Program-made: the position numbers and the translations under genes | In this document: in pieces, positions 18,800 to 35,824 of the stretch | Numbering within the stretch: the first letter of the stretch is position 1 | Layout: each line of letters opens with the position of its first letter | The notes under the pieces: generated by a model | What the model saw: the letters and a program-made list of their open reading frames with translations, nothing else | What the model was told of the DNA's origin: nothing | Database searches by the model: none | NCBI GenBank assembly: GCA_030653545.1 | Contig: JAURZE010000013.1 | Location: 1 to 64,000, forward strand | Direction of reading: 5' to 3' | DNA: 64,000 nt | From: Nitrospira sp. | GTDB taxonomy: Bacteria > Nitrospirota > Nitrospiria > Nitrospirales > Nitrospiraceae

Positions 18800-19846
18800 T
18801 CACGAATCCAGGCGATACTGAATCTGCACGCGTAACACGACCTGGCTCCGGCCCAGGGGTTGCGGTAATGCGAGCGGGCAGGAGCGCTTGATGACCTCGA
18901 TCGCGGCACGATCGAGCGCCTCATGCCCGGAACTCGTCGCAATGGTCACTTCCAGCAAGTGGCCGTGCTCATCGATGACCGCCCGCACGACCACATTTCC
19001 CTGCCAGTGATTCAGCCGGGCTTCATGAGGATATCGCTTCAACTCCGCCACCCGGCTCCAGAGCGTCTGCATCAACCATCCGAAATCCGGTTTGGCGTGA
19101 ACCGGCGCCGGCCCGGTCGCCGCCGTGGCAGACTCGCCCAGGACCGGAGCAGGCGGCAGAGGCCTGTCATTCATGGACTCCGAAGACACGGCCGCCGCCG
19201 GAGCTGGCGCGGGAGCCGCTGCTGCGGCTTCCGCGCGCACCTCCTGTGGCTCCCCGCGAAAGACCGGAGTGGAGAGTCCAGTCTCCCGTGAGGCCTCCAC
19301 GGCAAGCTGAGCTGGCGCCTCGTCCGTCGGAGGGACCGGCGCAGGGTTCGCCGACGAGACAGCCACAGCCGATTCCTCCGGCGGAGAAGGTCGGTCATTG
19401 GTGCCATGACTCAACACGTCCTCGGCGGCTGATGGCATTGGGTTCGCTTCGATCGCTCGATCGGACGGGAACGCCCGCGACGCTCCCGACACCGTTGCCG
19501 GATGAGCGTCGATGACAGGCGTGGCCGTCACCGGCTCAGCACTCGCGCGGCTCGCTTCCACCGTACGCTCGTGAGCGGCGGCGGCCGAGTCTGCGGCAGG
19601 CGTGGACAGGGGCCTTGATACCTGCCGCACCACCCGCGATGCCAGTGCCGAGACGGGTCTCTCCGCTTGGCTGGAAAGACTCTGGACTAGCGCGACGTCC
19701 CACTGAAACACCTCGCGCTGCGGCGGCACGGATTCCTGCGACCAGACCCACCCCGCGCCGCCCCAGAACAGAACATGCAGCAACAACGAGCATCCCCAGT
19801 TCCTGAGATCGGGACGGATCGGTATGCGCCCTATGCCGCGGTTCAT
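18800..19846 (-). CDS. tonB: TonB energy-transducing protein
   Basis: 348 residues. A single N-terminal membrane helix (CSLLLHVLFWGGAGWVW, about residues 18-36) anchors it to the inner membrane; a very long Ala/Pro/Ser/Glu-rich spacer crosses the periplasm; the C-terminal domain (about 260-348: RYPHEARLNHWQGNVVVRAVIDEHG, HEALDRAAIEVIKRSCP) contacts TonB boxes of receptors. ATG 19846 overlaps the stop of the PepSY gene in an ATGA junction, so the two are coupled. No exbB or exbD is in the window. It presumably serves the receptor encoded two genes upstream. Confidence 0.88.
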   Translation of the reverse strand: MNRGIGRIPIRPDLRNWGCSLLLHVLFWGGAGWVWSQESVPPQREVFQWDVALVQSLSSQAERPVSALASRVVRQVSRPLSTPAADSAAAAHERTVEASRASAEPVTATPVIDAHPATVSGASRAFPSDRAIEANPMPSAAEDVLSHGTNDRPSPPEESAVAVSSANPAPVPPTDEAPAQLAVEASRETGLSTPVFRGEPQEVRAEAAAAAPAPAPAAAVSSESMNDRPLPPAPVLGESATAATGPAPVHAKPDFGWLMQTLWSRVAELKRYPHEARLNHWQGNVVVRAVIDEHGHLLEVTIATSSGHEALDRAAIEVIKRSCPLALPQPLGRSQVVLRVQIQYRLDS

Positions 19847-21303
19847 CGTGCCCCCTTCGAAACGGATGGGCGAGTCGCCCAGATCCACAATCCCGACAGG
19901 GCGAGCCCTGCGCCTAGTCCGCACCAGCCCGCCATTCCGATCCGTCGGATGTCCTCATGCCCGAAGAACCAGGGCGCATCCCACCGATGCAGCAACTCAA
20001 ACAGACGGTGGTAGGTCCTGCGGGAGGGATCGAGCATCTCAAGAATCTCACCCGTCCGCGCATCGACATCGACCCAGAGAGGCGACGGGTCCTCGCGCTG
20101 CACACGAAAAACGGGAGGCAGCGCCTCCCGCGCGATCGCCGAATCGCGCCGCCGCTCCTCCCCGCTTCTGCGCCGGATGGTCAGCGCCGGCGCGCCCCCG
20201 AGGAGGGCGCTGACGGACGACTGCACCGTCGGCTCAGAAAACTCTTCCCGCGCCGCCGCCTCCGGATAGGTCAGCGCCACGATGGACTGATGCGACGCCG
20301 ATTCGCGGCCGATCGCATACAGCGTTCCCGCCACTTTCGTCACCCGTATCTCCTTCACTCTTCCCCCTGCCGCCATGCGGGACCACGCTCCCGCCGATCC
20401 TGCAAGGTCGCGCGCCGTCACGCGCCCGCCCATCGCCCGTTCCCGCTCCGCCGCCGAAGCTTTTCCGTCTGAAAACCATCGCCCGTGATCCATCGACAGC
20501 CACCCGCTGGCAATCCAGCACACGACCGCCACGCCGCCAATCGCTCCGAGCACGCGATGCACACCCCGAGATCCTCCGGAGAACCCCTTCCATCCATCGC
20601 GCGTCAGACCCCTGAGGCTCAGCCAGGCACCGGCCAGCGCCATCACCGTTGACAGCGCCCCAACCCACCAGAGCGTCCTGTCCCAGAGCGCCCACTGTCG
20701 ACGCAACCAGGGCAGATACCACCAATGCACCACCGCACCGGCCAGATTCCAACGCCGCTCCGCTACCGTCGTAGCCTGGACGACTTCGCCGGTCGTCCCG
20801 GAGAGATACAGCACCGGCGCCGACGGTCCCGCCAGTTCCGCTTTCCACAACGGCCGGTGCGGATCGAACCGCTGATGCACGGTCCAGACATCGTGTTCGA
20901 TCGCGCCAATCGAGACGATCGCGCCTTCCAGCGCCATGCGTTCCGCCGCGCGCTGCGCCTCAACGGCGACGAGCAGTCCTCCCCGGTTCTCGGCATTCAC
21001 CTGCCGCGCCATCAGCGAACCGTCGAGATACTGTACCGCCACGACGGGGACCTCCCCGACGGCGATGACCCGCAGCTGCTCGATCCCTTCGGGACGGTCG
21101 AACTCATGAACGATCCCCTCGAGCTCCCCACAGCAGAGGGCCGGATCGATCACCCCGGCCATGGAGAACCACTCGCTTTCCGTCACACTCGGATACGGCA
21201 CCCACAGCATGACCAGGCCGGAGAGACACCACAGCACCACCGCCGGCCCGACGCCGAGCGCCAGCCAGCGATGCCACCCAATGACGGAACCGCCCCTCCC
21301 CAT
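19843..21303 (-). CDS. PepSY-associated membrane protein
   Basis: 486 residues. Begins with a helix GWHRWLALGVGPAVVLWCLSGLVMLW, then periplasmic PepSY repeats (VNAENRGG; a second near DPSPLWVDVDARTGEILEML), with further helices near 210-235, 260-285 and at the C terminus (GMAGWCGLGAGLALSGLWIW). His residues in the helices (GWHR, HRVLGAIGG, LFELLHRWDAPWFFGHED) are typical of the PepSY_TM class, whose members lie beside TonB receptors and are thought to reduce or release metal from chelators. It starts four bases after the receptor stop and overlaps tonB, so all three form one uptake unit. Confidence 0.85.
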   Translation of the reverse strand: MGRGGSVIGWHRWLALGVGPAVVLWCLSGLVMLWVPYPSVTESEWFSMAGVIDPALCCGELEGIVHEFDRPEGIEQLRVIAVGEVPVVAVQYLDGSLMARQVNAENRGGLLVAVEAQRAAERMALEGAIVSIGAIEHDVWTVHQRFDPHRPLWKAELAGPSAPVLYLSGTTGEVVQATTVAERRWNLAGAVVHWWYLPWLRRQWALWDRTLWWVGALSTVMALAGAWLSLRGLTRDGWKGFSGGSRGVHRVLGAIGGVAVVCWIASGWLSMDHGRWFSDGKASAAERERAMGGRVTARDLAGSAGAWSRMAAGGRVKEIRVTKVAGTLYAIGRESASHQSIVALTYPEAAAREEFSEPTVQSSVSALLGGAPALTIRRRSGEERRRDSAIAREALPPVFRVQREDPSPLWVDVDARTGEILEMLDPSRRTYHRLFELLHRWDAPWFFGHEDIRRIGMAGWCGLGAGLALSGLWIWATRPSVSKGAR

Positions 21304-21306
21304 CGA

Positions 21307-23538
21307 CTAAAACCGGGCCATCATCAGCAATTCCACCGTTCGCGGCGCCCCGATCAGAACCTGACTGGGGTAGAACGGGTCCGCCCAGATCGCATAGGTC
21401 TTATCGAGCAAATTGCGGCCGCGCAGCATGAAGGTCATGTTCTTGTACGGAACCGAGACCCAGGCGTCCGTGGTCATGTAGGCATTGAGCCGGACAGCGT
21501 TCGCGTTATCCGCGTAGCGGTGGCCGACGTAGCGGAACGCCGCGCCGAGATCGAACGGCACGACAAACGGCACCCGGTAGACGCTCCAAATGTTGGCCAT
21601 CGTTTCGGGAACGTTCGGCGGGCGATTGCCGCCGCGGGAGACCACATTGCCTCCATCGGTTTCCGAAAAATCGGCAAACCGCGCGGACAGGAAGGTGAGA
21701 TTGCCCTGCAACCGCCAGGCGTCGGTCGGACGGATGGCGCCGCTGAGTTCCACTCCCTTGGAGGTCTGCCGTCCCACATTCTGGGCCGTGGTCAGCGAGG
21801 TCTGGGTCAGGATATTCTTCCGGAAGATGTCGAAGTAGGCCAGCGTCCATTCCGCCCGGTTGTTCCAGAGCCCCTGTTTGAGTCCGATTTCCCACTGCGC
21901 CCCGGTCGCCAGATTGAAATTCTCCCCCGCCCGAACGATGAAGACATTCGTGCCGACCGGATCGGCCGCCGTCGCATACTGACCATACAGCGTCAGATTC
22001 GGCAGCAAGTCGTAGACGAGTCCCGCGCGCCAGGTCGTCGGATTAAAGTTCCGTTCAAAGCTGGCGGTCGTATTGAACACGCCGGCGGCATTGAAGAGCT
22101 TCCGATCCAGATCGATATGGTCGTGCCGCAGGCCGCCGACCAGCTTGAGCGCATCCGTCAGATTGAATTGCTCTTCGATGAAGAGCGCGGCCGTCGTAAT
22201 CGTCGTCCGCTGCGCGGCCGAAGTGATCGAGCCGAACGAGCCGCTCGGAATCGCCAGCGGGTTGATGCTGTCGCCCCCGCTGAAGAAGCTGGGCCGGTTC
22301 AGATGGAGATGGCTGAAATCCACCCCGATGACAAACCGGTTCTTGTGCTCGAACAGCCGCTCGTTGATCTGGGCTTCCAACCGGTCGCCCGCCACATACT
22401 GATCATGCTGGACGAAGAAGCGGTCCCGATCGATCAGCTGAGTGCCGGTGTTGAATTGGTAGGTCTCGCCATTCTGCCAGTTCCGCTCCGCCCAATAGTA
22501 GTAGGCCTGATTGCGGATCTCGATCGTGCTGGTCGGCTGCCAGTTCGTCTTGAACTTGGTCCAATACGTCGTGGCGCTCATATCGGCGTCCACGACGTTG
22601 AAGTTCTGCCGGAGGATGCGCCCGTCGATCGTCCGCCCATCGTTCGTCGTGACGACGCCGCCGACCGCCGCCGAGCCGGCAAAGCTGCCGGGCATCAGGG
22701 GCGTCCCCCAATAGGGCACACTGCGATCGTGCGTCACATCGAACGACAGTTCGAAGTTGAGGTTGGGTGCGGCGTCATAGAGCAGCGCGCTCGTCCAATT
22801 CCAGTAGGTATAGGGCGCGCGCTGCACTCCGGCATAGTTGTCGGAGTTCTGATAACTGAGATCCACGCGATAATGCAGCTTGTCGGATCCGAGGGGCCCG
22901 CCGCTCCCCACCGCCGTCCGGAGCGTGTTATACGATCCGATGGACAGGAGCGCATCGGTTGTGACGTGGTCCTCCCGCAGCGGACGCTTCGTCACAAAAT
23001 TGATCGCCCCGCCCAACGCCCCTTCCCCGTAGAGAACCGAGGCCGGCCCCTTGAGAATTTCGATCCGGTCGAGATTCCAGGTATCGCGCGGCCGCGACGT
23101 CATGGACGCCGGCCCGATCATCAATCCGTCGTAGAGCAACCGCAGCTGATTGTTGGTGAAGCCGCGCATCGAAAAATTGGCCGGATTGCCGGGCGAATCG
23201 CCCACCGACAGGCCCGTCGCGCCCTGCACCGCTTCTGAAATCGTCCGTAACCCGCGCTCCTGCATGAGTGTCTGATCGACGACTTCGACGCTCGCCGGGA
23301 TCTCGCGAATCGACACACCCAACCGGCTGGCGGAAGGGCTTTGTTCCTCCAGATGCAGCGACCCGGTTCCCGCTGATGGAATTGCCTGACTGCGAATCTC
23401 CAGCGGAGGCACCTCGACCTCCTGTGGCCCCTCAGGATTGCCTTCCGCTGCGCGAATCGACCCTGGCCAGAGGACAGCGCTCCCGGTCACGACACTGACG
23501 GCCAATAGACCCACGATCATGTAACGAAACTCACTCAC
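21307..23538 (-). CDS. TonB-dependent siderophore/metallophore-type receptor
   Basis: 743 residues. Signal peptide at the start, then a plug domain with QTLMQERGLRTISEAVQGATGL, NFSMRGFTNNQLRLLYDG, IEILKGPASVLYGEGALGG and INFVTKRP, the classic motif set of siderophore-type receptors. The barrel follows and ends in LMMARF. The start is GTG 23538 with AAGGAGG six bases upstream. It lies in a zinc-type operon behind ribosomal protein genes, so a zinc complex (zincophore) is a likely ligand, but the iron-siderophore class cannot be excluded by sequence. The 132 bases before it hold no clear operator. Confidence 0.93.
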   Translation of the reverse strand: MSEFRYMIVGLLAVSVVTGSAVLWPGSIRAAEGNPEGPQEVEVPPLEIRSQAIPSAGTGSLHLEEQSPSASRLGVSIREIPASVEVVDQTLMQERGLRTISEAVQGATGLSVGDSPGNPANFSMRGFTNNQLRLLYDGLMIGPASMTSRPRDTWNLDRIEILKGPASVLYGEGALGGAINFVTKRPLREDHVTTDALLSIGSYNTLRTAVGSGGPLGSDKLHYRVDLSYQNSDNYAGVQRAPYTYWNWTSALLYDAAPNLNFELSFDVTHDRSVPYWGTPLMPGSFAGSAAVGGVVTTNDGRTIDGRILRQNFNVVDADMSATTYWTKFKTNWQPTSTIEIRNQAYYYWAERNWQNGETYQFNTGTQLIDRDRFFVQHDQYVAGDRLEAQINERLFEHKNRFVIGVDFSHLHLNRPSFFSGGDSINPLAIPSGSFGSITSAAQRTTITTAALFIEEQFNLTDALKLVGGLRHDHIDLDRKLFNAAGVFNTTASFERNFNPTTWRAGLVYDLLPNLTLYGQYATAADPVGTNVFIVRAGENFNLATGAQWEIGLKQGLWNNRAEWTLAYFDIFRKNILTQTSLTTAQNVGRQTSKGVELSGAIRPTDAWRLQGNLTFLSARFADFSETDGGNVVSRGGNRPPNVPETMANIWSVYRVPFVVPFDLGAAFRYVGHRYADNANAVRLNAYMTTDAWVSVPYKNMTFMLRGRNLLDKTYAIWADPFYPSQVLIGAPRTVELLMMARF

Positions 23539-23670
23539 AGCATTCCTCCTTGAGGCGAACTCACGGACGTCCGCACATCAGATGACAGTTCTTTCCCTGC
23601 TTTGCCGAGACCGGAACGGATGCGGCAAGGCCGCAATGGTCCGATGGGCACCCTCTACACGGTGTGTTGA

Positions 23671-23985
23671 TTAGGAAAGAATGGCCGGAGGCGGGCCGCG
23701 AACGGACGGAGACGAAAGGGGTGATGAATCACGGGACGCGTAGACCAGCGGACTGAGCCACGCGATCAGATCGATCACCGCGATGCCAGCATCGCCTGAA
23801 GCGAGTCCAGACTCGGCCGCATGGTCGAGCCACGCGTGATCGTCCAGCATCGTGTGCGCGGGGTTGCCGGTCAGCAGTCCCAGCTCATGATCGAGCAGGA
23901 CGAACGGCAACGGCAGCGCCAACGCCAGATAGGCGAGCAACGCTCCGGCCAGCACGACGCGATGAAGATAGGAACAACGCACCAT
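23671..23985 (-). CDS. Small membrane-anchored protein, paralogue 2 of a local family
   Basis: 104 residues with an N-terminal hydrophobic helix (VVLAGALLAYLALALPLPFVLL), an acidic/His turn LDHELG, the family motif DDHAWLDHAAESGL and the terminal RGPP near the C terminus. It shares this plan with 16774-17127 and 35080-35397. The gene starts four bases after the L33 stop and precedes the receptor by 132 bases, like paralogue 3, which also stands directly before a receptor. No named family recognised; a metal-related role in the cell envelope is inferred only from context. Confidence 0.7.
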   Translation of the reverse strand: MVRCSYLHRVVLAGALLAYLALALPLPFVLLDHELGLLTGNPAHTMLDDHAWLDHAAESGLASGDAGIAVIDLIAWLSPLVYASRDSSPLSSPSVRGPPPAILS

Positions 23986-23989
23986 CGTC

Positions 23990-24148
23990 TTACCGCTTTT
24001 CCTTATGCACCGCGTGTTTCCGACAGAATGAGCAATACTTCTTCAGCTCGATCCGGTCCGGATCGTTCTTCTTGTTCTTCGTCGTCGAATAGACCGACTT
24101 CCCCGGCGACTCACAGCCGATACAGGCGATGGTAATCACTTCACGCAT
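23990..24148 (-). CDS. rpmG: Ribosomal protein L33, with intact zinc ribbon
   Basis: 52 residues, translated here from the raw sequence because it is short. It begins [11 protein letters not shown] and continues [15 protein letters not shown], so all four zinc-binding cysteines are present (C9, C12, C39, C42). L33 is a small protein of the large ribosomal subunit. In zinc-starvation operons one expects the cysteine-free form, and the neighbouring S14, S18 and L28 here are cysteine-poor. So this copy is either the only L33 gene or an exception. It starts 21 bases after rpmB and is followed after four bases by the small paralogue-2 gene. Confidence 0.92.
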
Positions 24149-24169
24149 GATCAGACTCCCTGGTCCTGG

Positions 24170-24406
24170 TTAAATCTTTTCTCCCGCCGCTCGCATTTCC
24201 GCCACGACACGGACCAACCCCTTCTTGTCGATGATCTTCATCCCGTGCGCCGAGACCGACAGGGTGATCCAGCGGTTTTCATCCGGCAGAAAATACCGCT
24301 TTCGCTGGATGTTCGGCAGGAACCGCCGTCTCGTCCGGTTGTTGGCATGACTCACGTTGTTGCCCGACACAGGCTTCTTCCCCGTCACCTGACATTGCTG
24401 GCCCAT
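24170..24406 (-). CDS. rpmB: Ribosomal protein L28, zinc-free form
   Basis: 78 residues. [29 protein letters not shown] and [13 protein letters not shown] are the L28 core, nearest in style to the E. coli protein. Only one cysteine remains (CQVTGK) and the CxxC pairs of zinc-binding L28 are absent, so it can function without zinc. AAGGAGGAGTGG before ATG 24406 is a strong ribosome site and fixes the start. Zinc-free L28 paralogues are classic members of Zur regulons, and the L28-L33-S14-S18 set resembles the alternative ribosomal protein operon known from actinobacteria. Confidence 0.93.
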
Positions 24407-24448
24407 CCACTCCTCCTTGTTCACATCACCTTGTCGCCACACGCCCCC

Positions 24449-25732
24449 TTACACCCTCAACAGATCGTCATCGGCCTCCTGATCCTCCGGCGGATGTTCC
24501 GCCATGAGGGGAAACGGATCGGTGGCGGCGCGCCAGGACGCCAGCCCCGGCTCCAACTCTTCCTCCGTCAACAGACAGGCTTCCAGCCGGGCCCTGAGAG
24601 CCGCCTGATCCATCTTGCGGCCGATCAGCACCAATTCCTGGCTGCGGTCGCCAAACTCCGGATCCCACACGCCCTGCACGCGCTGATATTCTTCTTCATC
24701 CTCCGGCCACTGCGCCTTGGGCAATGCGGCATACCACCGCCCCACCCAGCGGACGGCGCCGGTCCCGCCCGCCTGCGACCAGAGGGCGATCAGATCCGGG
24801 CGCGAGGCAATCCAGAACAGGCCCTTCGACCGAAGCACGCCCGGCCAGGGCTCTTGAAAGAAGTGCCACACCCGCTCCGGATGAAAGGGGCGCCGGGCCC
24901 GAAACATCCAACTGGCGATACCGTATTCATCGGCCTCGGACCGCGCGTCACCGCGCAAGGTCTTCATCCACCCCGCCGCCTGGCTCGCCTGCTCAAAGTC
25001 GAATCGCCCCGTATCCAGAATGGCGCGGAGATCAACCCGGCCGTGGGACACGGGCAGACAGACCGCCTCGGGATTGAGCCGCGCCAGAATGGCCGACAGC
25101 TCGGCCATCTCGCGTTCCGACACCAGGTCCGCCTTATTGATGACCAGCACGTTGGCAAACTCGATCTGATCGATGAGGAGATCCGTGATCGTCCGCTCAT
25201 CCTCTTCGCCGAGGCCCAACCCCCGGACCCGCAGGTCTTCGGCTTCGTGATAGTCTTTCAGAAAGTTGACGGCATCGACGACCGTCACCATCGTATCCAG
25301 CCGGGCGACGGCGGAAAGACTGCGCCCCTGCTCGTTTTCGAACTGAAAGGTTTCAGCGACCGGCATCGGTTCCGAGATCCCCGTCGATTCGATCAGCAGA
25401 TAGTCGAACCGCCGCTCTTCCGCCAGCCGCGCCACTTCCTTCAGCAGATCCTCCCGCAGCGTGCAGCAGATGCAGCCGTTGCTCATCTCCACCAGTTGCT
25501 CGTCGGTCCGGCTGAGCGCGGCGCCGCCCTGTTCGACCAGCTGGGCATCGATATTGACCTCGCTCATGTCGTTGACGATCACCGCGACGCGCAGGCCCTC
25601 CCGATTGTGCAAGACATGATTCAAGACGGTCGTCTTGCCCGCTCCGAGAAATCCCGACAGCACCGTCACCGGCAGGCGGTCGTCGGGGCTGCGGCGCGAG
25701 CTCCTGACTGTTTGTTCCAAGACTGTGGTCAT
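24449..25732 (-). CDS. COG0523 GTPase, YciC/ZigA-like zinc metallochaperone
   Basis: 427 residues from ATG 25732, which has GGGAG about eight bases upstream. P-loop GFLGAGKTT (27-35), [10 protein letters not shown] switch, GCICC metal motif (C87, C89, C90), [10 protein letters not shown] and VINKADLV are all intact. The long C-terminal domain carries [14 protein letters not shown] and [10 protein letters not shown], which mark the large YciC/ZigA subgroup induced by zinc starvation. The protein ends in an acidic tail. It probably moves zinc to essential enzymes. It is followed by the rpmB-rpmG pair (42 bases) and preceded by a degenerate sister gene. Confidence 0.93.
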
Positions 25733-25748
25733 GGCTGCTTCTCCCTTC

Positions 25749-27020
25749 TCAATTCGCATCGGACTCTTCGTCGCGTGATGCGGCTTCCTGCGTCGCACGG
25801 GCAAAGGGATCGTCAAAGCATCGCCACATCTCTTCCCCCGACAGCACTTCCGCCGGGGTCAGCAAGCAGGCGCGCAGCCGTCGAAACAGGCGCGGCTGAT
25901 CCAGTCCGTATCCGATGCACGCCAGCTCCTGACGCCGGTCGCCAAACTCGATCGTCCAATACTTGTGGAGCCGTTGCTGAAACTCCTTCCCAGTCGGCCA
26001 CTCTTCCCGCGGAGTCGCCACCCACCAGTCGCCGATACATTCGAAATGCCGCACCCCGGCCGTCTGCTCCCAGGAAAAACACCGGTCCGGTTGGGATGCC
26101 AGCCAGAAAAATCCTTTGCACCGCTCCACCCCGGGCCACTCTTCTTCGATCAACGCCCAGAGCCGTTCAGGATGGAACGGCCTGGTGGCGCGAAACACCC
26201 CGGCTGTCCAATTCGACGAGTGAATCGCGGGCATCGGCGCCCCTTCGATCAACTTGGCCCATCCGGGCTGAAAACCGACCGGCTCGCCGGCAGACGGACG
26301 ACAACTCAGCAGACGGTCGGCCAACTCCGGCCCATCGGAAGCCTGCAGCAGATCGGCCTCCGGGTTCAGATACTTCAACAGGGCGTGCAGACGTTGCCGC
26401 GCCTCAGAATCGATTCGCTCGCTCCTGTTCACGACAACCATAGTGCAGTATTCCACCTGCTCAACCAGCAGCTGGGACAAGGTGCGGCCGTCATCGGCCC
26501 CACAGCTCAGGCCGCGCTCCTGTAAAGCGTCCGCACTGTGCGCGTCGTCCCAGAACCGCTCGGCGTCGACAACCGTCACGATCTGATCGAGCCGCGCTAG
26601 GGAGGCCATCGGCGACTCCTCGGTCCAGGCCTCGTTGAATACTTCCGCCACCATCATCGGTTCCACCAACCCCGAACACTCGATGAACAGGCGGGAGAAT
26701 CGGCGCATGCGCGCGATGGCCATGATCGCCTCCGTCAGGCTGTCGCCTAACGAACAGCTCACGCACTCCTGCATCAGTTCGGCCAGGACTTCGCCCAGTC
26801 GAATTACTTCGATCCCGTCACCCAATCCGACAAGCGGCTGACCGGGCGCCGCGCCCCGATCATGGATGAGCACCGCCAACGGGCCGGCGGGTCGCTGCGC
26901 CAGCACGTCGTGTAACACCCGGCTCTTGCCCGCGCCGACGAAACCGCACAAGACCGTCACCCGCAAAGGCGCCGCTGTCGGCGTCTCCGGCGGAGATGCA
27001 CTATCTGACTGCTCCGACAT
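25749..27020 (-). CDS. Degenerate COG0523-family protein, sister of the neighbouring GTPase
   Basis: 423 residues from ATG 27020 (GGGAGG six bases upstream). The P-loop GFVGAGKS (26-33) and [10 protein letters not shown] remain, and the C-terminal part ([30 protein letters not shown]) shows it to be a close relative of the gene downstream. But the metal motif is changed from GCxCC to ECVSC (C86, C89; the middle cysteine is Ser) and the guanine-specificity NKxD is changed to NRSE at 198-201. The switch I region is also replaced. It may bind GTP poorly or not at all, and may act as a regulatory or structural partner. It starts the pair, 16 bases before the next gene. Confidence 0.87.
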
Positions 27021-27094
27021 GACTGCCTCCCACCGCGCCACTGGCGCACTCCCCTCCGTTGATCATCTCTGTCCGGCTCCTGGAACGTTCCGCC

Positions 27095-27310
27095 TCAGTA
27101 CCCGTCCGGCCCGGCAAATGGCAGCAACGCAATCTGGCGGGCCCGCTTGATCGCCCGCGTCAATTCGCGCTGCCGTTGCATGCTGTTTCCCGAAATCCGC
27201 CGCGGCACAATCCGGCCGGTTTCCGTCAGAAACCGCCGCAGAAATTCGACGTTCTTAAAATCGATCGGCGTGGTGTCGTCGATGATGCGTCGTCGTCGTT
27301 CCCCGAACAT
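27095..27310 (-). CDS. rpsR: Ribosomal protein S18, zinc-free form
   Basis: 71 residues. The core [26 protein letters not shown] and [19 protein letters not shown] is typical of S18. The N-terminal CxxC and later CxxC of the zinc-binding type are absent, and there is no cysteine at all. GGGAGGTGGAGGT precedes ATG 27310. S18 binds S6 and 16S rRNA in the small subunit. Its place between S14 and a COG0523 pair suggests a replacement protein made under zinc limitation, or the sole copy of the genome. Confidence 0.93.
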
Positions 27311-27322
27311 ACCTCCACCTCC

Positions 27323-27628
27323 CTACCAACTGGATTTACGCACGCCGGGAATGTCTCCCTTCAGCGCCAATAACCGGAAATCGATGCGCGACATCGCGAA
27401 CCGCCGCAGATACCCCCGCACACGCCCGGAAATCTCGCACCGGTTTCGCACGCGCACCGGGCTGGAGTTTTTCGGCAAGTCGTTCAAAGCGCTTTGCGCG
27501 GTCCGTTTGTCCTCGTCGCTGCTGGTCTTGCTTTTGATCACCGCCTTGAGCGCGGCGCGTTGACCGGCATACCTCTCTACCAACTGCTTTCGCTTTTCAT
27601 TCCGCAACCGACTGCTGATCTTCGCCAT
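27323..27628 (-). CDS. rpsN: Ribosomal protein S14, zinc-free long form
   Basis: 101 residues, the exact length of the E. coli type. [41 protein letters not shown] is the conserved C terminus. It has one cysteine only; the short zinc-dependent S14 with two CxxC motifs has about 61 residues, so this is the zinc-independent form. AAAGGAGAAACGC before ATG 27628 decides the start against the longer frame. It precedes rpsR by 12 bases. Confidence 0.94.
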
Positions 27629-27662
27629 GCGTTTCTCCTTTCCCAAGTTGCTTGTCCACGCC

Positions 27663-27872
27663 CTACGCGGCCCGTTCGCACTTCAACGACCGTTCGTCAG
27701 CCGCGCGCTCGCCGAAACTCACCCACTGCCCCTGCTGTACCGAATAGCAGCTCCCACAGGTGTTGTCCGAAAATGGCGACAGCCCCATCAGCCATTCATA
27801 CGAAAACTCGCCGCGATACTCCGGAGGGAGAAAGGACGTAAATCCCGACAACGGCGTGGTCTCATCGTTCAT
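27663..27872 (-). CDS. Small protein of unknown function in the zinc island
   Basis: 69 residues. GGAGGACTGT before ATG 27872 is a strong ribosome site inside the end of the dihydroorotase gene, which it overlaps by 11 bases, so it is very likely a real gene. Features: an aromatic middle ([19 protein letters not shown]), CGSC at about 43-46, a further Cys near the end (LKCERAA). CxxC could hold zinc or form a disulfide. There is no signal peptide. No family recognised. It lies 34 bases before rpsN. Confidence 0.6.
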
Positions 27873-29172
27873 ACAGTCCTCCTTGTGGCCTGGATGCATC
27901 GGAAGCGAACACCACACGCCCTCCAACCAGCGTCCGCACCACCCGGCCTTTCAATCGCCATCCGGCAAACGGGGTGTTCCGCCCCTTCGAGTGAAATTCC
28001 TCGGGGTCGACCGTCCAATCGGCTTCGGGATCAACCACGGTCACATCAGCCTGCGCCCCGGGCTTCAACGTGCCTTTCGGCAGACGCAGGAGTCCGGCGG
28101 GAACACTCGTCAGACAGGCCACCGCCCGCTCCATCGAGATCCCGCCTTCCTGCACCAGACGCAGCGTCAGCGCCAACGCCGTTTCCAATCCCACGATGCC
28201 GAACGGAGCCCGATCCATGCCCCACTGTTTTTCATATTCCGCGTGCGGGGCATGGTCTGTGGCAATGGCGTCGATCGTGCCGTCGGCCAATCCCTCGATC
28301 ACCGCAACGCGATCCTGCTCGCCCCGCAACGGCGGATTCATCTTGGCGTTGGGGCCCGACCGGCGCACCGCGTCGTCGGTCAGCATGAAATGATGCGGAC
28401 AGGCCTCCGCTGTCACCGGCCATCCCTGAGCCTTTGCACGGCGAATCGCGTCGATCGTGCCTGCCGAGCTCACGTGCGCCACGTGCAACCTGGCTCCGGT
28501 TTCCCTTGCCAACTGAATATCCCGTTCGACCATCCTGGTTTCAGACCGGGAAGGAATGGCCGGCCATCCCAGCGCGCGCGAGACCGGACCTTCGTTCATG
28601 CACCCGCAGCCGGACAGATTGAGATCCTCGCAATGATCGATCACCGGCAGATTGACTGCCGCAGCCAGCTCCATCGCCCGTCGCATGACATCGTCATCCA
28701 TGACCGGTTTGCCGTCGTCCGACACCGCCACGCAGCCGGCCCGCTTCATGGCGCCAAAATCATTCAGCTCCCGCCCCTGGGAGGCCTTTGTGATCGCACC
28801 GATGGGATAGACCCTCGCCTGGCCCGTGGCGGTTGCGCGCCTGACGATCCAGCCGGTCACCTCGGCCGAATCATTCACGGGGTTGGTGTTCGGCATGCAA
28901 CAGACCGTCGTAAACCCGCCCGCCACAGCTGCGGCCGTACCGGTCGCGATCGTTTCCTTGTATTCGAAGCCGGGCTCGCGCAGGTGCGCATGTAAGTCGA
29001 CCAGCCCCGGAAGAATCCACAGACCACGCGCATCAAATGACTCATGAGCCCGGCCTCGCCCCAATGCTGTGAGCCCCGGTCCCACTGCCACAATCAGCCC
29101 CTGATCAATCAACAGATCCGCCATGCCGACCCAATGCCCTGGATCGATCACCTGTCCGCCGCGAATCACCAT
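27862..29172 (-). CDS. pyrC: Dihydroorotase, class I (pyrC paralogue candidate)
   Basis: 436 residues. Closes carbamoyl-aspartate to dihydroorotate in pyrimidine synthesis. The metal ligands are seen in VDLHAHLREPG (HxH), AHVSSAGT, DHCEDLNLS and ATDHAPHAEYEK; the substrate motif GFTTVCCMPNTNP is present. ATG 29172 overlaps the stop of the preceding gene by one base (TGATG). Dihydroorotase is a zinc enzyme, and a second pyrC copy is a known member of Zur regulons in other bacteria. Whether this genome has another copy cannot be seen here. It is coupled to the 69-residue gene downstream. Confidence 0.92.
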   Translation of the reverse strand: MVIRGGQVIDPGHWVGMADLLIDQGLIVAVGPGLTALGRGRAHESFDARGLWILPGLVDLHAHLREPGFEYKETIATGTAAAVAGGFTTVCCMPNTNPVNDSAEVTGWIVRRATATGQARVYPIGAITKASQGRELNDFGAMKRAGCVAVSDDGKPVMDDDVMRRAMELAAAVNLPVIDHCEDLNLSGCGCMNEGPVSRALGWPAIPSRSETRMVERDIQLARETGARLHVAHVSSAGTIDAIRRAKAQGWPVTAEACPHHFMLTDDAVRRSGPNAKMNPPLRGEQDRVAVIEGLADGTIDAIATDHAPHAEYEKQWGMDRAPFGIVGLETALALTLRLVQEGGISMERAVACLTSVPAGLLRLPKGTLKPGAQADVTVVDPEADWTVDPEEFHSKGRNTPFAGWRLKGRVVRTLVGGRVVFASDASRPQGGLYER

Positions 29173-29732
29173 CACGGCGCCGGCTCGTCCGCAACCGGCC
29201 TACCGTGCCGGACGAGCGCCGCCACCCGGTGGAGAAAGGTCCGGACTTCCGCCGGCTTCATTTGATCCGCCGGAATTTCCGCTGCCAGGAATACGCCGTC
29301 CAGCAAGGCGAACAATCCGTGGGCGATCCGATGGTGCCCCTCGACGCCGACCCCGAAGGCCTCGACAAAAGCCTCCCGGCTGGCCGGGTCGGCGCAACAG
29401 AGCGAATAGCCGGCGGCCTGGATATTCGGATGGAACCGGTCCACTTCCCGCCAATGGGTTTCGTGATCCGCCGACACATGGACGATACGCAGATGCGGAA
29501 TCGTCTCGTGGCTCCGCTCCTCAAGTTCAACGATCTGGGCCAGACAAGCATGCTTTTCAATGTTCGGCAGGGTCGACACCACGACCAGTCCCTCCTGCAG
29601 ATCGGAGGGCACAAGCGGCCGGCTGGCCGCTCGTGCGACCGGAATCGTGAAGTCGGCCTCCAACCGCTCACCCGGCAGGGGTAACTCCCCCTGCAATTCA
29701 ATATGGCTGGTCCCGAGTTGCGCCGTTCTCAT
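29172..29732 (-). CDS. Tpx-like thioredoxin-fold protein with one conserved cysteine
   Basis: 186 residues from ATG 29732 (upstream ATG 29753 abuts the ZIP stop). The order ELQGELPLPGERLEADFTI, VVSTLPNIEKHACLAQI, IVHVSADHETHWREVD and FVEAFGVGVEGHHRIAHGLFALLDG follows thiol peroxidase. C63 stands at the peroxidatic position, but the TPSLDTPVC context is changed and the resolving cysteine is replaced; a Cys pair occurs instead at 112-113. Peroxidase activity is doubtful. It might be a redox chaperone or a peroxiredoxin of altered mechanism. It is coupled to the ZIP transporter upstream and pyrC downstream. Confidence 0.7.
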   Translation of the reverse strand: MRTAQLGTSHIELQGELPLPGERLEADFTIPVARAASRPLVPSDLQEGLVVVSTLPNIEKHACLAQIVELEERSHETIPHLRIVHVSADHETHWREVDRFHPNIQAAGYSLCCADPASREAFVEAFGVGVEGHHRIAHGLFALLDGVFLAAEIPADQMKPAEVRTFLHRVAALVRHGRPVADEPAP

Positions 29733-29752
29733 GCTGTCCTCTGAAGCTCTCA

Positions 29753-30565
29753 TCAATGGGGAATCATCGTCAGCGCAGCGATCGTCACCATTCCGGCGAT
29801 CATCATGGCGAACTGCCAGATTCCCTTGGCCGCGCCCATTCGTCCGTGCAGCCCCGGCACGAGATCTGCCAGGCCGATATAGAGGAAACTGGCGGCTGCC
29901 ACACTCAGCGCGTAGGGCACGATCGCTTCGGCATGCCCAAGCCCTCCATAGGCGACGACAACGCCTACCAATGTCCCAAGCCCGGACAGCGTATTCCAGA
30001 AGAAGGCCCTCCAGCGGGAGAACCCGCTGGAAAGCAGAATCGTGAAATCACTGAGCTCCTGCGGCACCTCATGTCCCAGGACCGCCAGTGTTGTCACCAA
30101 CCCAAGTCCCGGCGAAGCCACACAGGCGGCACCGATGGCAATGCCGTCCGCCATGTTGTGAACGGCATCACCGATCAGGACCAGCATCCCGGTTTTTTCC
30201 TGCATGCCTTTTTTATGGACCTCTCCATGGTGGTGCTCATGGCCAGGTTGCTCCTCGACAGGTTCCTCCCCGTGTGCATGCCTCCATATGACCGTCCATT
30301 CCAATACAAAGAACAACACGAGCCCGGCCAACAGCGAGATCCCCACTTCATAAATTGAAATATGCTCCAGGGCCTCAGGGATAAGGCCGATCACCGCCGT
30401 CGCCAGCATCGTGCCGGTGGCGTAACTCAATAAATACGGCATGGCGCGATGCCGCCATCCGTCAGGAATGAAGAGCACCAGACAGGCTGGCACCAAGGCG
30501 CCGAGGCTGCCGAGCAGCCCCATCCAGATGGCAAACCACCAGGTTGACTCGCCGGGCAGACTCAC
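29753..30565 (-). CDS. ZIP-family zinc transporter
   Basis: 270 residues from GTG 30565, eight membrane helices. The transport motifs are HNMADGIAIGAA in helix 4 and GHEVPQELSDF in helix 5, both exact for ZIP proteins. Between helices 3 and 4 is a His-rich cytoplasmic loop (RHAHGEE...GHEHHHGEVHKKG) typical of metal binding. ZIP proteins bring Zn2+ or Fe2+ into the cytoplasm. It is the inner-membrane importer of the island; no ZnuABC is present here. It is 57 bases after the MoaB gene and joined to the Tpx-like gene by a TGATG junction. Confidence 0.94.
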   Translation of the reverse strand: MSLPGESTWWFAIWMGLLGSLGALVPACLVLFIPDGWRHRAMPYLLSYATGTMLATAVIGLIPEALEHISIYEVGISLLAGLVLFFVLEWTVIWRHAHGEEPVEEQPGHEHHHGEVHKKGMQEKTGMLVLIGDAVHNMADGIAIGAACVASPGLGLVTTLAVLGHEVPQELSDFTILLSSGFSRWRAFFWNTLSGLGTLVGVVVAYGGLGHAEAIVPYALSVAAASFLYIGLADLVPGLHGRMGAAKGIWQFAMMIAGMVTIAALTMIPH

Positions 30566-30622
30566 TGTTCGTCACGCCGGCCATACCGCCCCTCGTCTAT
30601 CGGACCTATCATCATCACGCTC

Positions 30623-31165
30623 CTAGTCCGCATGCGGCGGAAGTTCCTGCTTCACACGAGGCAATAATTCAGCCAGGTTGCAGGGTCTGTGATTAAGATC
30701 GAGCTGCGGGAGGATGATCTTTTCCATCCCCAGCCGGCAGGCGCCGGTGCTGCCGGGGAGCAGGAACACGATGGTGTCGCCGCACACCCCGGCATCGGCC
30801 CGCGACTGAATCGTCGAGGTGCCGATCTCCGCGTAGCTGAGCCAGCGGAACAGTTCGCCGAATCCCGGAATCGGTTTCGTGAACAGGGACCGCACGGCAT
30901 CAGGCGTCACATCCCGTTGCGTCACGCCGGTTCCGCCCGTCACAATGACGAACTCCACTGTGGGATCGGCGACCCAGGCGGCAATCGTCTTGCGGATCGT
31001 CTGAAAATCGTCTTTGCACATCTTGCGGTCGGCGATCCGATGCCCCGCTTGCGTCAACCGGTCCACAATCGTCTTACCGCTCGTATCGGTCTCCGGCGTC
31101 CGTGAATCGGACACCGTCAACACGGCGACGGCCACCGAAGCTCCTGCGGATACAACCGTTGTCAT
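30623..31165 (-). CDS. moaB: MoaB/MogA-family molybdopterin protein
   Basis: 180 residues from ATG 31165 with AGAAGGA five bases upstream; longer frames are not supported. The molybdopterin-binding fold is plain: [67 protein letters not shown], and [19 protein letters not shown]. MoaB and MogA adenylate molybdopterin before molybdenum insertion. The gene overlaps the 117-residue gene by an ATGA junction. Its place in a zinc island is odd; it may simply ride along, or serve a zinc-independent version of the pathway. Confidence 0.9.
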
Positions 31166-31515
31166 GATTCCTTCTCCTCTTGCGCTGACAGCGCATCGTG
31201 AACCACGGCACACCAATGTCTGACCTCTGAAAGCCGCACGGCCCAACGCGCTTGGCCTTCCTCGTCTCCCGCCTCCGCCAGCAGATGCAGCATGGCCTCC
31301 GCCAACGCGCCGGCTTCTGCGGCATGCTCCAGGCGGGCCAACGACATCTCTGTGCTGTGCGCCAGCTCCCAAGCCCGCTGAAACAGAACGATCAGCGGGA
31401 CGATCGAAGTGGACCGGGCGTCCATACGGGGAGCGCTCTCCGCCGCCCCTTCCCCCGCCCCCCGATCATGACCGGCTTGGACGAACCTCCGGGACTCGCC
31501 TGGGTCATCGCTCAC
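31162..31515 (-). CDS. Small helical protein of unknown function
   Basis: 117 residues from GTG 31515 with AGGTG upstream. The first ~30 residues are polar and probably disordered; the rest is a helical hairpin rich in Ala, Leu and Glu ([43 protein letters not shown]). Single Cys in [11 protein letters not shown]. No export signal. Its end overlaps moaB (ATGA) and its start follows the next COG0523 gene by 48 bases. No family recognised. Confidence 0.55.
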
Positions 31516-31563
31516 GGCAGCACCTGCGCCCGATCGGCCATTGATGTCATGATCGCTCCTCCC

Positions 31564-32589
31564 TCATCTCGAGACCTTCTTCCCGGCCAGGCGCCGACGT
31601 GTCGTTCGACGCTTCGGCCGCATCAGACAATGCTCAAGTCCCTCCAGAAACCGTTGCCAGGCTACCCGCCGGCCGATCACCACGATCTTGGCGTGGGACT
31701 GTCTGCGCCCGATGTAGGGCGTGACCGAGAACGAACCCAAGATCCACTGCACCTCGTGAAACCCCGTCTTCCCCGCCACTCGAATAAATCCCTTGAGCCG
31801 CACGACCGATCGCGCGTACCGCTTCAACCAGGCTTCCATGCGGGCAGGATCGACCGGCAAGGTGAGCCGGAAACTGCCGCTTTGATAGCCGACCGCTGAA
31901 TCCTTGATGACGCCGTCGGTCACGACAGGGGCCCGGCGCGCGGGCGCCGCATTGAGCAACTGCGGCACTTTCACATCGGCGTGGACGGCCCGCAGCACCC
32001 GGGCCGTGGGATTCGCGGCCCGGATCCGTTGCTCAACGACCGGCGCCTGGTCGGGCGCGATCTGGTCCAGCTTGTTCAGAATGATCGTGTCGGCCTGACA
32101 AAGATGACGATCTGCGGCGGGCCAGTAGACGCCGAGCTTCAGAAATCTGGGCGCATCGACCAGCACGATGACGGAGGCCAAGTGCGCGGCCTCGCCGATC
32201 TGCGCGTCAGAGGACAACGCCCGTTCGACGCCGGCGACCACCTGACCGGTGTCGGCCAGTCCGGTCGTCTCGATAAACACCGGCGCTCCGCCGGAATGCC
32301 GCACGAGATGCCCGACTTTGTCGCTGAATTCACCGGAGAGATCGCAGCAGATACACCCGCTCAGCAGCGACTGCAGTTCAATGTCTTTGGACCGGGGATG
32401 TTCATGCAGGACGGCTCCATCCACATCGACTTCGCCGAATTCATTCATGAGCACGGCCGGCTTCACGCCGCGATCCAATTCATGAGTCAGCGCCCGTTTC
32501 AGCAGCGTCGTTTTCCCGCTGCCCAGAAAGCCGGCGATCACATAGATCGGGGAGCCGGTCGCTCTGACTCGCGCGGCCTTACTGGACAT
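31564..32589 (-). CDS. COG0523 GTPase (short form)
   Basis: 341 residues from ATG 32589 with AGGAGG upstream. P-loop GFLGSGKTT (20-28), MNEFGEVDVDG, GCICC (C79, C81, C82), [12 protein letters not shown] and LNKLD are intact. The C-terminal domain has VRLKGFIRVAGKTG and ends in a strongly basic tail (RPKRRTTRRRLAGKK). It is a different subgroup from 24449-25732, nearer to the cobW/CobW_C short type. It overlaps the 92-residue gene upstream by 11 bases. Confidence 0.9.
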   Translation of the reverse strand: MSSKAARVRATGSPIYVIAGFLGSGKTTLLKRALTHELDRGVKPAVLMNEFGEVDVDGAVLHEHPRSKDIELQSLLSGCICCDLSGEFSDKVGHLVRHSGGAPVFIETTGLADTGQVVAGVERALSSDAQIGEAAHLASVIVLVDAPRFLKLGVYWPAADRHLCQADTIILNKLDQIAPDQAPVVEQRIRAANPTARVLRAVHADVKVPQLLNAAPARRAPVVTDGVIKDSAVGYQSGSFRLTLPVDPARMEAWLKRYARSVVRLKGFIRVAGKTGFHEVQWILGSFSVTPYIGRRQSHAKIVVIGRRVAWQRFLEGLEHCLMRPKRRTTRRRLAGKKVSR

Positions 32590-32857
32590 GATGCGGATCC
32601 CCTCCTGATGCCAGTGCCTCGACATCCGATTGAGTCACCTCAGCGGCCGTTTTGTGGAGCTTGTGCTGGGTGGTCTTCCCCGGGCCTTCGAGCACCGCGA
32701 CGACGGTTTCGATCGGCGGGCAACCAGGTTCACGGCACTCCAATTCCGTCACCATCACAGTCGTGTCGTCGGACAACGCCCAGGTCGTGCGCACCCAGCT
32801 TTTAATGCGCGCCGCTTGTTCCGAATCGATCGTGCGGCGTCCTCCGAACAGGTTCAT
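32579..32857 (-). CDS. Small protein with C-x4-C motif, partner of COG0523 genes
   Basis: 92 residues with GGAGG six bases before ATG 32857. The core is IKSWVRTTWALSDDTTVMVTELECREPGCPPIETVVAV, followed by GKTTQHKLHKTAAEVTQSDVEAL. C-x4-C with PP and the EL/ET frame suggests a compact beta-rich fold, possibly metal-linked. I have a sense that similar small proteins accompany COG0523 genes in other bacteria, but cannot prove it here. Lies two bases after the WD40 gene and overlaps the GTPase gene. Confidence 0.65.
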   Translation of the reverse strand: MNLFGGRRTIDSEQAARIKSWVRTTWALSDDTTVMVTELECREPGCPPIETVVAVLEGPGKTTQHKLHKTAAEVTQSDVEALASGGDPHHVQ

Positions 32858-32859
32858 CT

Positions 32860-33921
32860 TCAGCCTCCGATCCCTTCCACCGAGTACAACGACACGACCC
32901 CGTCATTGGTGCCGGTGGCCAGCCATGTACCGTTCGGGCTCCAGGCGACCGAGGAAAGGCCACCCGACTTGTTCACTTCCTGGCTGAGAATCGGCTTCGT
33001 CGTCTGCGGTTCCCACAAACACAAGAGGCCGTCTTCACCGGCCGTCGCCACAATCGAGCGAGAGGGATGACAGGCGATCTCCTGAATCCATCCCAGATGC
33101 CCCTTGAACAACCGGCCGCCGGTCCCCTCGAATTTTTTCATGCTCCACGCGACGAGGGCGGGGCCGGAGACCGTAAACAGATTTTTCCCATCGTGGTCGA
33201 ACCGCACCGAGGTCACCTTCATCGGATACCCGGACATATGCCAATTCTGCTCGCTGTCCGTGCGAAAGAGATGAACCGATCCGTCAAGGTTTCCCGAAGC
33301 GAGATACTCGCCGTTTGGGTTCACCGCGATCGACAACAGCGCCCCATCATAGGGAAAGGGGCGCACCGGCTTGTCGCTGCCCAGCTTCCACAACCAGGCC
33401 CCGCCGTAGCAGGCCGACAGGACTCCGCCGCCGCGCGGCATCCAGGCCAGGGCGGAGATGGTCGTCTTATGCGCCGGGACTTCTCCCGCGAGTTGCAGCC
33501 CCTCCATAGCGGCCCAATCCCAGAGTCGCAACCGCTTCCCTGCGGACACCGCGAGACGCTTGCCATCCGGCGACCAGGCGAGATGCTCGACCCAACTTCC
33601 CTGCCCGCCGACCTCCACGGTGGCCAGAGCGCCGCCGGTACTCGGGTCCCAGACTGCAACGACTCCATCCTGCCCGCCGGTCGCCAGCTCCAACCGCATG
33701 GGATGCCAGGCGAGCGCCTGCACCGACTGCCGATGCCCCGCGATCTGACACGCCGGCGTAAACGACGCCACGTCCCATATCGCCACCTGCCCGGAAGCGG
33801 CGCAAGCGGCGAGCCTGGTCCCATCGGCGGAAAACGCCACGCGATGGATATAGTCATCCAGGCGGGCATAGCCGACCGGCCTCACCGTGACCGTGGGCTT
33901 AGACTTCGCTAGACGAGGCAT
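32860..33921 (-). CDS. WD40-repeat beta-propeller protein
   Basis: 353 residues made of about seven WD40 blades, for example [68 protein letters not shown] and [22 protein letters not shown]. No signal peptide, so cytoplasmic. Such propellers are docking platforms. It overlaps the COG0523 gene upstream by 13 bases and precedes the C-x4-C gene by two bases, so the four are one translational unit. A role as scaffold for metal delivery is inferred. Confidence 0.92.
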
Positions 33922-34880
33922 GACCGGAACCCTTTCGTGAGCGCATCCCGATCAAGATCCTTCCCGATGAAGACCAGTTGATTGTTGCGCAGCTCGCCGG
34001 CTTTCCATGCCCGATCGGCTTTGCCGTCGAAGAGCATATGAACGCCTTGAAAGACGAACCGATGATCGCGGCCCTCGACATTCAGGATGCCCTTCATCCG
34101 GTAGATCTTCGTCCCCATCGTCGAGAGCACTTCGCGGAACCAGTCGTTGACCCTGCCTTCGTCGACTACGCCATCCTCGACCAGCGCCACAGAGAAGACG
34201 CTGGGATCGTGTTGATGCGCGTCTTCGCCCAAAAAGTTGGGATCGATGTCCAGCTTGCGGCTCAAATCGAACGCCCCGATGTTCAACAGCCGGTTGATCT
34301 CGATCTGCGCATCCTTCGTCCGATGGATCTTCGCCATGACGTTGATGGCCCGGATCCTGGCCTCCAACCGATCAACTTCGCCGGCAGGAACCAGATCGAT
34401 CTTGTTCAGGAGGATCACGTCGGCGAATGCGATCTGCTCCTTGGCCTCCGGACTCGTATCGAGATGCTCCCAGATATGTTTCGAATCGACGACGGTGACG
34501 ATCCCGTCGAGCAACAACCGCCGCTTCATCTCGTCGTCGACAAAAAAGGTCTGCGCGACCGGCGCCGGATCGGCCAAGCCGGTCGTCTCGATGACCATAT
34601 AGTCGAAACGGTCTTTCCGCTTGAGCAAATTGCCGATAATGCGGAGCAAATCGCCGCGCACGGTGCAACAGATGCACCCGTTGTTCATCTCGAAGATCTC
34701 TTCATCCGCGCCGATCACCAGTTGGTTGTCGATCCCGACCTCGCCGAATTCGTTGACGATCACGGCGACACGCTTGCCGTGCTCGGTGGTCAAGATCCGG
34801 TTCAACAGCGTCGTTTTTCCTGCCCCGAGAAACCCGGTCAGAACGGTCACAGGCACCAGATCCGGTTCAGACGTCGGCAT
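33909..34880 (-). CDS. COG0523 GTPase
   Basis: 323 residues from ATG 34880, whose GGAGGAGG six bases upstream is one of the strongest ribosome sites in the window. GFLGAGKTT (17-25), [22 protein letters not shown] (C69, C71, C72), [18 protein letters not shown] and LNKIDLV are intact; the His-containing [16 protein letters not shown] follows and the CobW_C domain ends with [11 protein letters not shown]. This is the common short CobW-like subgroup. It comes 199 bases after paralogue 1 and may have its own promoter or leader. Confidence 0.92.
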
Positions 34881-35013
34881 ATATTCCTCCTCCACTCGTA
34901 ATGGTACTGACTCCGCCTTCCATGCATCTTCTGCAGGAAAGGATCGAACACCGTCCGCCATACAGATGGAGAACAGCCCAACCCCTTGAGCGCCCGCTCG
35001 ACAGGAGGACGAA

Positions 35014-35047
35014 CGGGCAGACGCCCGATCCTCTCCTGCACAGGAGG
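35014..35047 (-). other. Two adjacent hairpins in the gap before the COG0523 gene
   Basis: In the 199-base gap between 35080 and 34880, CGGGC-AGAC-GCCCG (35014-35027) and CTCTCCTG-CA-CAGGAGG (35031-35047) can each fold. There is no U-run, so a simple terminator is doubtful; they may shape the mRNA leader of the GTPase gene. No other feature seen in this gap. Confidence 0.3.
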
Positions 35048-35079
35048 CAGAGAAACGGTAAACGATGATTCTAAAAGGG

Positions 35080-35397
35080 CTAGATCAGAACAGGGGGACC
35101 GCGAGAGGGATCGACGAAGAGGGACACCGATCGGAGCGGGGATTCAAACAGAAGATCGACGGTGGCACGCAACACCGCAACCGTGACCGTGAGATGGGCG
35201 GACTGCAACGAAGTCCCGGCCACATGGTCGAGCCAGGCACAGAGATCCGATTCACTATGGTGCGAATCAGTCGGGAGGGCGAGGTCGTGCTCGATCAGGA
35301 GTGGATTCAGCGCCAGCGCGAGCGCAAGGTACACTGCTGCCAATCCTAGACGAATCAGGACTGATGATGAGGCGCTTACTGACATTGCGGGCACCAT
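35080..35397 (-). CDS. Small membrane-anchored protein, paralogue 1 of a local family
   Basis: 105 residues from ATG 35397 with GGAG eight bases upstream. Hydrophobic helix [23 protein letters not shown], then [20 protein letters not shown] and C-terminal DPSRGPP. Clearly the same family as 23671-23985 and 16774-17127. It overlaps the 3' end of the Fur-family regulator by 22 bases, so it belongs to the regulator's operon. Likely anchored in the membrane with the His/Cys region outside. Function unknown. Confidence 0.72.
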
Positions 35398-35792
35398 CCA
35401 AAAAACTCCAACGCGTGCCCTTCGATCGCAAACTTGGTTTGCCGCTCGACCAATTCCGTCAGTTTCTTGAGCGGACAGAGCATCAGATCGACGATCCGGC
35501 CGCACCCGCGACATTGGATATGGTGGTGATGCTCGCGGCCATGACGGACCTCGTACCGCATCTGCCCTTCATGGAGCCCGACCGGATTCACCAGCCCGAG
35601 TTCCTGCAGCATGGCGACATTTCTATAGACCGTGACCAAATCCACCGCCGCCTTCGCCCTCTTCAGCCGATCAGCGATCTCGGCCACCGTAATGGGCAGC
35701 GTGCTCTGCTCCAGAATGGCGAGAATGGCCTTCCTGGGCTTCGTCAGCTTTTTCCCGCCGGCGCGCAAACTATCGAGAATGGATTCGGCCAT
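35376..35792 (-). CDS. zur: Fur-family regulator, probably Zur
   Basis: 138 residues from ATG 35792. N-terminal winged helix (LTKPRKAILAILEQ, LVTVYRNVAMLQELGLV) and C-terminal dimer domain with the His cluster REHHHHIQCRGCG (C94, C97) and a terminal CPQC (C134, C137), the structural zinc site. Fur, Zur and Nur cannot be separated by sequence alone, but the downstream genes (zinc-free ribosomal proteins, COG0523, ZIP) argue strongly for Zur, which represses them when zinc is sufficient. It is the first gene of the island and probably represses itself through the palindrome upstream. Confidence 0.88.
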   Translation of the reverse strand: MAESILDSLRAGGKKLTKPRKAILAILEQSTLPITVAEIADRLKRAKAAVDLVTVYRNVAMLQELGLVNPVGLHEGQMRYEVRHGREHHHHIQCRGCGRIVDLMLCPLKKLTELVERQTKFAIEGHALEFFGWCPQCQ

Positions 35793-35803
35793 CGGCAATT
35801 CCT

Positions 35804-35824
35804 AATTGCAAGTGAGTTGCATTT
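35804..35824. promoter_or_regulatory. Fur-family operator (probable Zur box) before zur
   Basis: AATTGCAA-GTGAG-TTGCATTT is an inverted repeat of 8-base halves (7 of 8 pair) with a 5-base spacer, 12 bases before the regulator's start codon. TTGCAA-N5-TTGCAA-type sites are used by some Fur-family regulators. I found no second clear copy elsewhere in the window, so it may be the single control point for a long transcript, or other sites may be more diverged. Confidence 0.6.

Follow-up and report, generated by a model that had tools for sequence, protein, structure and literature searches.

The window analysed here, 64,000 nucleotides of a Nitrospira sp. contig, carries on its minus strand a zinc-starvation cluster (positions 19843-35792) comprising zur, four COG0523 genes, genes of a WD40 protein, a MoaB/MogA-like protein and a ZIP transporter, a dihydroorotase paralogue and genes of ribosomal proteins S18, S14 and L28. 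A TonB receptor and a PepSY-like protein are also encoded there, and the cluster is largely conserved across related genomes. Read from position 35792 down, the minus-strand genes encode a FUR-family regulator, two further COG0523 proteins, the WD40 protein, the ZIP transporter and the dihydroorotase; the more distal order is S14, S18, degA, ZigA sister and L28 (Table 1). The name degA is used here for a degenerate, CxxC-type COG0523 gene. The S14, S18 and L28 genes of the cluster are of the zinc-free type; the genome holds one other copy of each, and those copies carry zinc-type Cys pairs.

Several small genes of the cluster deserve mention. A protein of about 70 aa with a CxxC motif (NTCGSC) is encoded at 27663-27872 (-), immediately upstream of the zinc-free S18 and S14 genes, and is kept in most related loci with 53–62% identity. 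Between the ZIP and dihydroorotase genes lies the gene of a 194-aa protein (29172-29756, -), which shows 65–77% identity in several related loci. Neither protein has a Pfam or NCBIfam match. Separate parts of the cluster, 23671-23985 (-) and 35080-35376 (-), encode a pair of small hydrophobic proteins that resemble each other and have a stretch rich in His and Asp; relatives of this pair recur in other loci.

The degA reading frame runs from an ATG at 27020 to a stop at 25749, with GGGAGG immediately 5′ of the start. Its product belongs to the CobW/COG0523 proteins, scoring above the curated cut-offs of both cobW (PF02492; 99.6 bits, cut-off 20.7) and CobW_C (PF07683; 69 bits, cut-off 22) and having the P-loop and Walker B Glu (ExxG) of the family. 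The initial annotation had described a retained P-loop and C-terminal domain, together with a change of GCxCC to ECVSC and of NKxD to NRSE; the GFVGAGKS motif, the CobW_C score and an alignment with the intact sister agree with this. Switch I, described there as lost, is changed, but it is remodelled with an invariant H53-D54 rather than missing. In the metal motif only the middle Cys has gone (CxCC to CxxC), while the first and third are invariant. The GCxCC motif, which defines COG0523 members according to Haas et al. 2009 (PMC2770081), is absent from the degA clade, where CV[S/G]C is found in all nine members. The guanine-specificity motif NKxD is likewise absent from the clade; the orthologues have SKTE, NRSA or TRSA at this position. 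Cys25, directly N-terminal of the P-loop, is both invariant and clade-specific.

Table 1. Features of the degA locus in the window, with the sequence motifs of the degA protein.
Feature	Coordinates	Strand	Basis or remark
Zinc-free L28 paralogue	24170..24406	-	genome's other copy has CDLC...CTRC
Intact sister, ZigA-type zinc metallochaperone GTPase (GCICC, NKAD)	24449..25732	-	ZigA equivalog score, alignment
degA	25749..27020	-	423 aa
NRSE replacing NKxD (guanine specificity)	26418..26429	-	alignment
Walker B ECSG	26670..26681	-	Glu114 retained; Cys115 clade-specific
C86-V-S-C89 replacing C-I-C-C	26754..26765	-	S or G replaces the middle Cys throughout the clade
Remodelled switch I, H53-D54	26859..26864	-	sister's NDMSEVNID altered in degA
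P-loop GFVGAGKS, residues 26-33	26922..26945	-	intact
Zinc-free S18 paralogue, no Cys	27095..27310	-	genome's other copy has CRFC
Zinc-free S14 paralogue	27323..27628	-	genome's other copy has CPLC...CRIC
Dihydroorotase paralogue	27862..29175	-	profile search
ZIP zinc transporter	29753..30565	-	domain search
Third COG0523 paralogue (GCICC, NKLD)	31564..32589	-	domain search, alignment
Canonical COG0523 (GCICC, NKID)	33909..34880	-	domain search, alignment
FUR-family regulator, Zur candidate, operon head	35376..35792	-	family match
Zur-box-like palindrome AATTGCAAGTGAGTTGCATTT, 21 bp	35804..35824	.	about 12 bases before zur start codon

The complete paralogue already reported beside degA does adjoin it, beginning 16 bases past the degA stop. 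It is about 40% identical to degA and passes the ZigA equivalog NF038288 (627.7 bits, cut-off 600). ZigA is the best-scoring family of degA as well, which matches it over the full length; the score, 329.5 bits, is below the same cut-off of 600. degA is similar to ZigA in its full-length match and its zinc-starvation operon, but differs in CxCC, NKxD and switch I.

An AlphaFold2 model of degA based on 13 sequences (mean pLDDT 74, pTM 0.77), in which the region of switch I and the CxxC loop is poorly determined, has its best PDB match in E. coli YjiA (1NIJ, 4IXM, 4IXN). As in degA, YjiA combines a P-loop domain with CobW_C; however, the identity is about 15% and the TM-score over both domains is low. 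Residues E37, C66 and C67 of YjiA correspond to D54, S88 and C89 of degA, and the title of entry 4IXN (YjiA E37A, C66A, C67A mutant) backs this alignment of the three degA residues with YjiA metal ligands. Of these, degA has lost one, changed one conservatively (E37 to D54) and kept one; C86 and H53 could act as substitutes for the lost ligand.

A search of Nitrospirota for degA relatives yielded eight further members with 57–61% identity to the window protein. The set of nine (the window, G006 (= L021), L022, G226, G256, G245, G081, G083 and G093 (= L023)) spans four genera and two families of the phylum. One scan of genome contigs returned Nitrospira only; genomes outside Nitrospirota were covered through plasmid records alone, in which no degA homologue above about 40% identity was found, the best matches listed all being ZigA-like. 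The C-V-[S/G]-C motif, His53, Cys25, Cys115, Cys301 and Cys314 are invariant in the nine members, and of these residues ZigA proteins in general share only the two Cys of C-x-x-C. A chance origin of the altered motifs is excluded because they are conserved in the eight further proteins.

Pairwise dN/dS values of 0.20–0.45 for degA (mostly 0.2–0.3), versus 0.08–0.20 for the sister, indicate purifying selection on degA, somewhat more relaxed than on the sister. The highest values were obtained for L007 versus L008/L009 and coincide with an apparently recombined C-terminus. These loci, from one genus, have near identical degA sequences except for a sharply divergent C-terminal third, a pattern that suggests recombination.

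A second degenerate clade, degB (CNQC, CTRC or CTQC), joins degA in the tree with a support of 96/96. Two degB members, G039 (L012) and G008 (L013), have lost the CxxC loop, and G039 also has an in-frame TGA; decay is probably under way in this clade. The possibility of a selenoprotein, raised by internal TGA codons flagged in some paralogues, was rejected because TGA is the normal stop in L018 and L020, and in L012 it lies within the already degraded degB. The state of degB, the motif loss in degA and its faster evolution compared with the sister would all suit a ZigA duplicate in decay. Such a fate for degA itself is very improbable, since nine open frames from four genera contain identical changes; it was rejected on the dN/dS values and the clade-wide, clade-specific invariant residues. 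The initial annotation had preferred a functional protein to a decaying copy and had proposed an alignment of orthologues as a check. In that alignment the altered motifs are conserved in all nine members, with dN/dS of about 0.2–0.45, and no clade member has a normal GCxCC or NKxD. Judging by its sequence record, degA encodes a COG0523 protein that is conserved and functional, though non-canonical.

The surroundings of degA bear on its possible partners. Zinc-free S18 and S14 genes lie just upstream of degA in nine of nine loci, and an intact ZigA gene adjoins it in eight of nine. The exception is G256, a 99% complete genome with the operon S18-S14-degA-L28; ZigA was found neither in this operon nor in the rest of the assembly, where the next best match is a canonical COG0523 protein scoring 134 bits. 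Conversely, ZigA follows S14 in G230, where degA is missing, and in G008 and G039 degB occupies the place of degA, without a ZigA sister. Because of these gene orders, the association of degA with zinc-free S18/S14 is tighter than that with ZigA. It had been suggested earlier that degA is a pseudoenzyme partner, for example a heterodimer subunit or a regulator of zinc transfer. The adjacent ZigA would then have degA as a non-catalytic subunit or regulator (a heterodimer), with its GTPase activity or zinc transfer tuned by degA. The adjacency on which the suggestion was built holds for most loci, with ZigA directly 3′ of degA, and the combination of retained CobW_C, P-loop and Walker B Glu with altered G4 and CxCC is as expected for such a partner. 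However, degA occurs without ZigA in G256, ZigA without degA in G230 and degB without ZigA in G008 and G039, and a shared operon would explain the adjacency too. An obligate degA–ZigA heterodimer is therefore unlikely and a facultative interaction possible; the partner role as a whole is considered improbable.

Regulation by zinc is suggested by the head of the operon. The palindrome in front of zur was located with the G039/G008 box as the pattern: a 17-bp match with ≤3 mismatches occurs once in the 64-kb window versus 0.10 expected. A palindrome search with ≤1 mismatched pair did not retrieve this box. Related palindromes precede zur in G256 and the S18-S14 unit in G006, L022, G245, G008 and G039. 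These features make the degA operon a highly probable, though still putative, Zur regulon.

A regulated COG0523-like protein of similar appearance was described in mycobacteria. Rv0106 was reported as a Zur-regulated (repressed) protein with CXSC and without Walker A (Haas et al. 2009, PMC2770081), so a degenerate member of this kind is not new to the family; the initial annotation had held that a pseudoenzyme partner would be. Rv0106/MSMEG_6069 is Mrf (Mpy recruitment factor), found with zinc-free ribosomal genes (PMC7174638). According to a recent review (PMC13418864, 2026), the CXXC of Mrf binds zinc and controls both Mrf stability and the recruitment of Mpy; Clp degrades Mrf that carries zinc, and Mrf free of zinc delivers Mpy, a hibernation factor, to C- ribosomes.

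The CxSC motif, His53, the zinc-free ribosomal neighbours and the three S30AE (HPF-type) proteins of the Nitrospira genome recall Mrf. Because of this likeness, the explanation favoured here, with confidence slightly short of even, is that degA, a conserved and non-canonical COG0523 paralogue under putative Zur control, most likely works like Mrf and acts on the alternative ribosome. As zinc falls, degA would be made together with zinc-free S18, S14 and L28. It would sense residual zinc via C86-x-x-C89, probably together with H53 and D54 in the remodelled switch I, instead of handing zinc over through CxCC. Zinc-free degA would then bind the alternative (C-) ribosome and act on it; one possible action is the recruitment or licensing of a hibernation factor (S30AE/HPF). 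Since the P-loop is kept, unlike that of Mrf, the degA cycle may still be powered by the binding of nucleotides, perhaps without guanine specificity.

The presence of ZigA beside degA in eight of nine loci is also consistent with a role in zinc transfer. A further explanation is that degA is a second chaperone for zinc or another metal, whose site and nucleotide specificity have changed and which supplies a particular client when zinc is scarce, with no link to the ribosome. The intact P-loop and Walker B, the retained C86/C89 and CobW_C and the extra invariant Cys residues would suit a chaperone, as would the ZIP, dihydroorotase and other COG0523 genes of the operon. Nevertheless, every member has lost NKxD and the middle Cys, which corresponds to C66 of YjiA, one of the residues mutated in 4IXN along with E37 and C67; the constant neighbours, moreover, are S18 and S14 rather than one metalloenzyme. 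A second chaperone is considered rather unlikely.

To our knowledge, Mrf, from mycobacteria, is the one well-described relative of the metallochaperones that has turned into a zinc-dependent switch of ribosome hibernation. The same Cys change, switch-I His and neighbours in nitrifying bacteria suggest a wider use of COG0523 proteins in this role, or two origins of it. It may be proposed, tentatively and well short of even confidence, that a P-loop-bearing, COG0523-derived CxxC form in Nitrospirota links the hibernation or protection of C- ribosomes with nucleotide binding and zinc sensing, and that zinc-gated control of this kind is not confined to Actinomycetota. The degA protein would offer a non-pathogen system with the P-loop still present. 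Annotation by domains alone labels degA-like proteins as GTPases or zinc chaperones, and such labels call for caution.

Family models and trees bear on the relatedness to Mrf. Three proteins (Nocardia, Rhodococcus and Tsukamurella), taken from stretches around an S14 gene, exceed the cut-off of the Mrf family (NCBIfam NF047431; 375 bits) with 592, 589 and 480 bits. In two annotated records, such true Mrf proteins adjoin zinc-free L28/L33/S14 genes; all three contain GC[VI]SC and share His53 of switch I with degA. The degA protein reaches 167 versus 375 bits, and its identification as Mrf by this model was rejected; the model does not single out degA, because the intact sister scores higher (203 bits). 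In the best tree, the degenerate clades group with Mrf/altRP proteins (support 95/90), all these branches being long, and the AU test does not reject their placement beside the Nitrospira sisters instead (p = 0.09). In trees without one side of this join, the other side is placed without resolution. The join is at risk of long-branch attraction, and the resemblance may reflect either common descent or convergence.

Like Mrf, degA is derived from COG0523 proteins, has CXSC in place of CXCC (CVSC in the window protein and CV[S/G]C across its clade) and a switch-I His, keeps CobW_C and has lost NKxD. The Asn-to-His53 change in switch I is common to nine of nine degA members and six of six actinobacterial Mrf/altRP-type proteins compared. 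Both Mrf and degA are found with zinc-free S14/S18/L28 paralogues, and Mrf is under Zur control in mycobacteria. In contrast to Mrf, which has lost its P-loop, degA has the P-loop intact in all nine members, occurs in Nitrospirota rather than Actinomycetota and is usually followed by an intact ZigA. The COG0523-like proteins of altRP clusters (Streptomyces, Nonomuraea) share His53 with degA and lie among zinc-free ribosomal proteins, as shown for Streptomyces, but they have lost the P-loop. The Streptomyces copies (L037, L043) combine the lost P-loop with a retained CACC, the reverse of the Nitrospira pattern.
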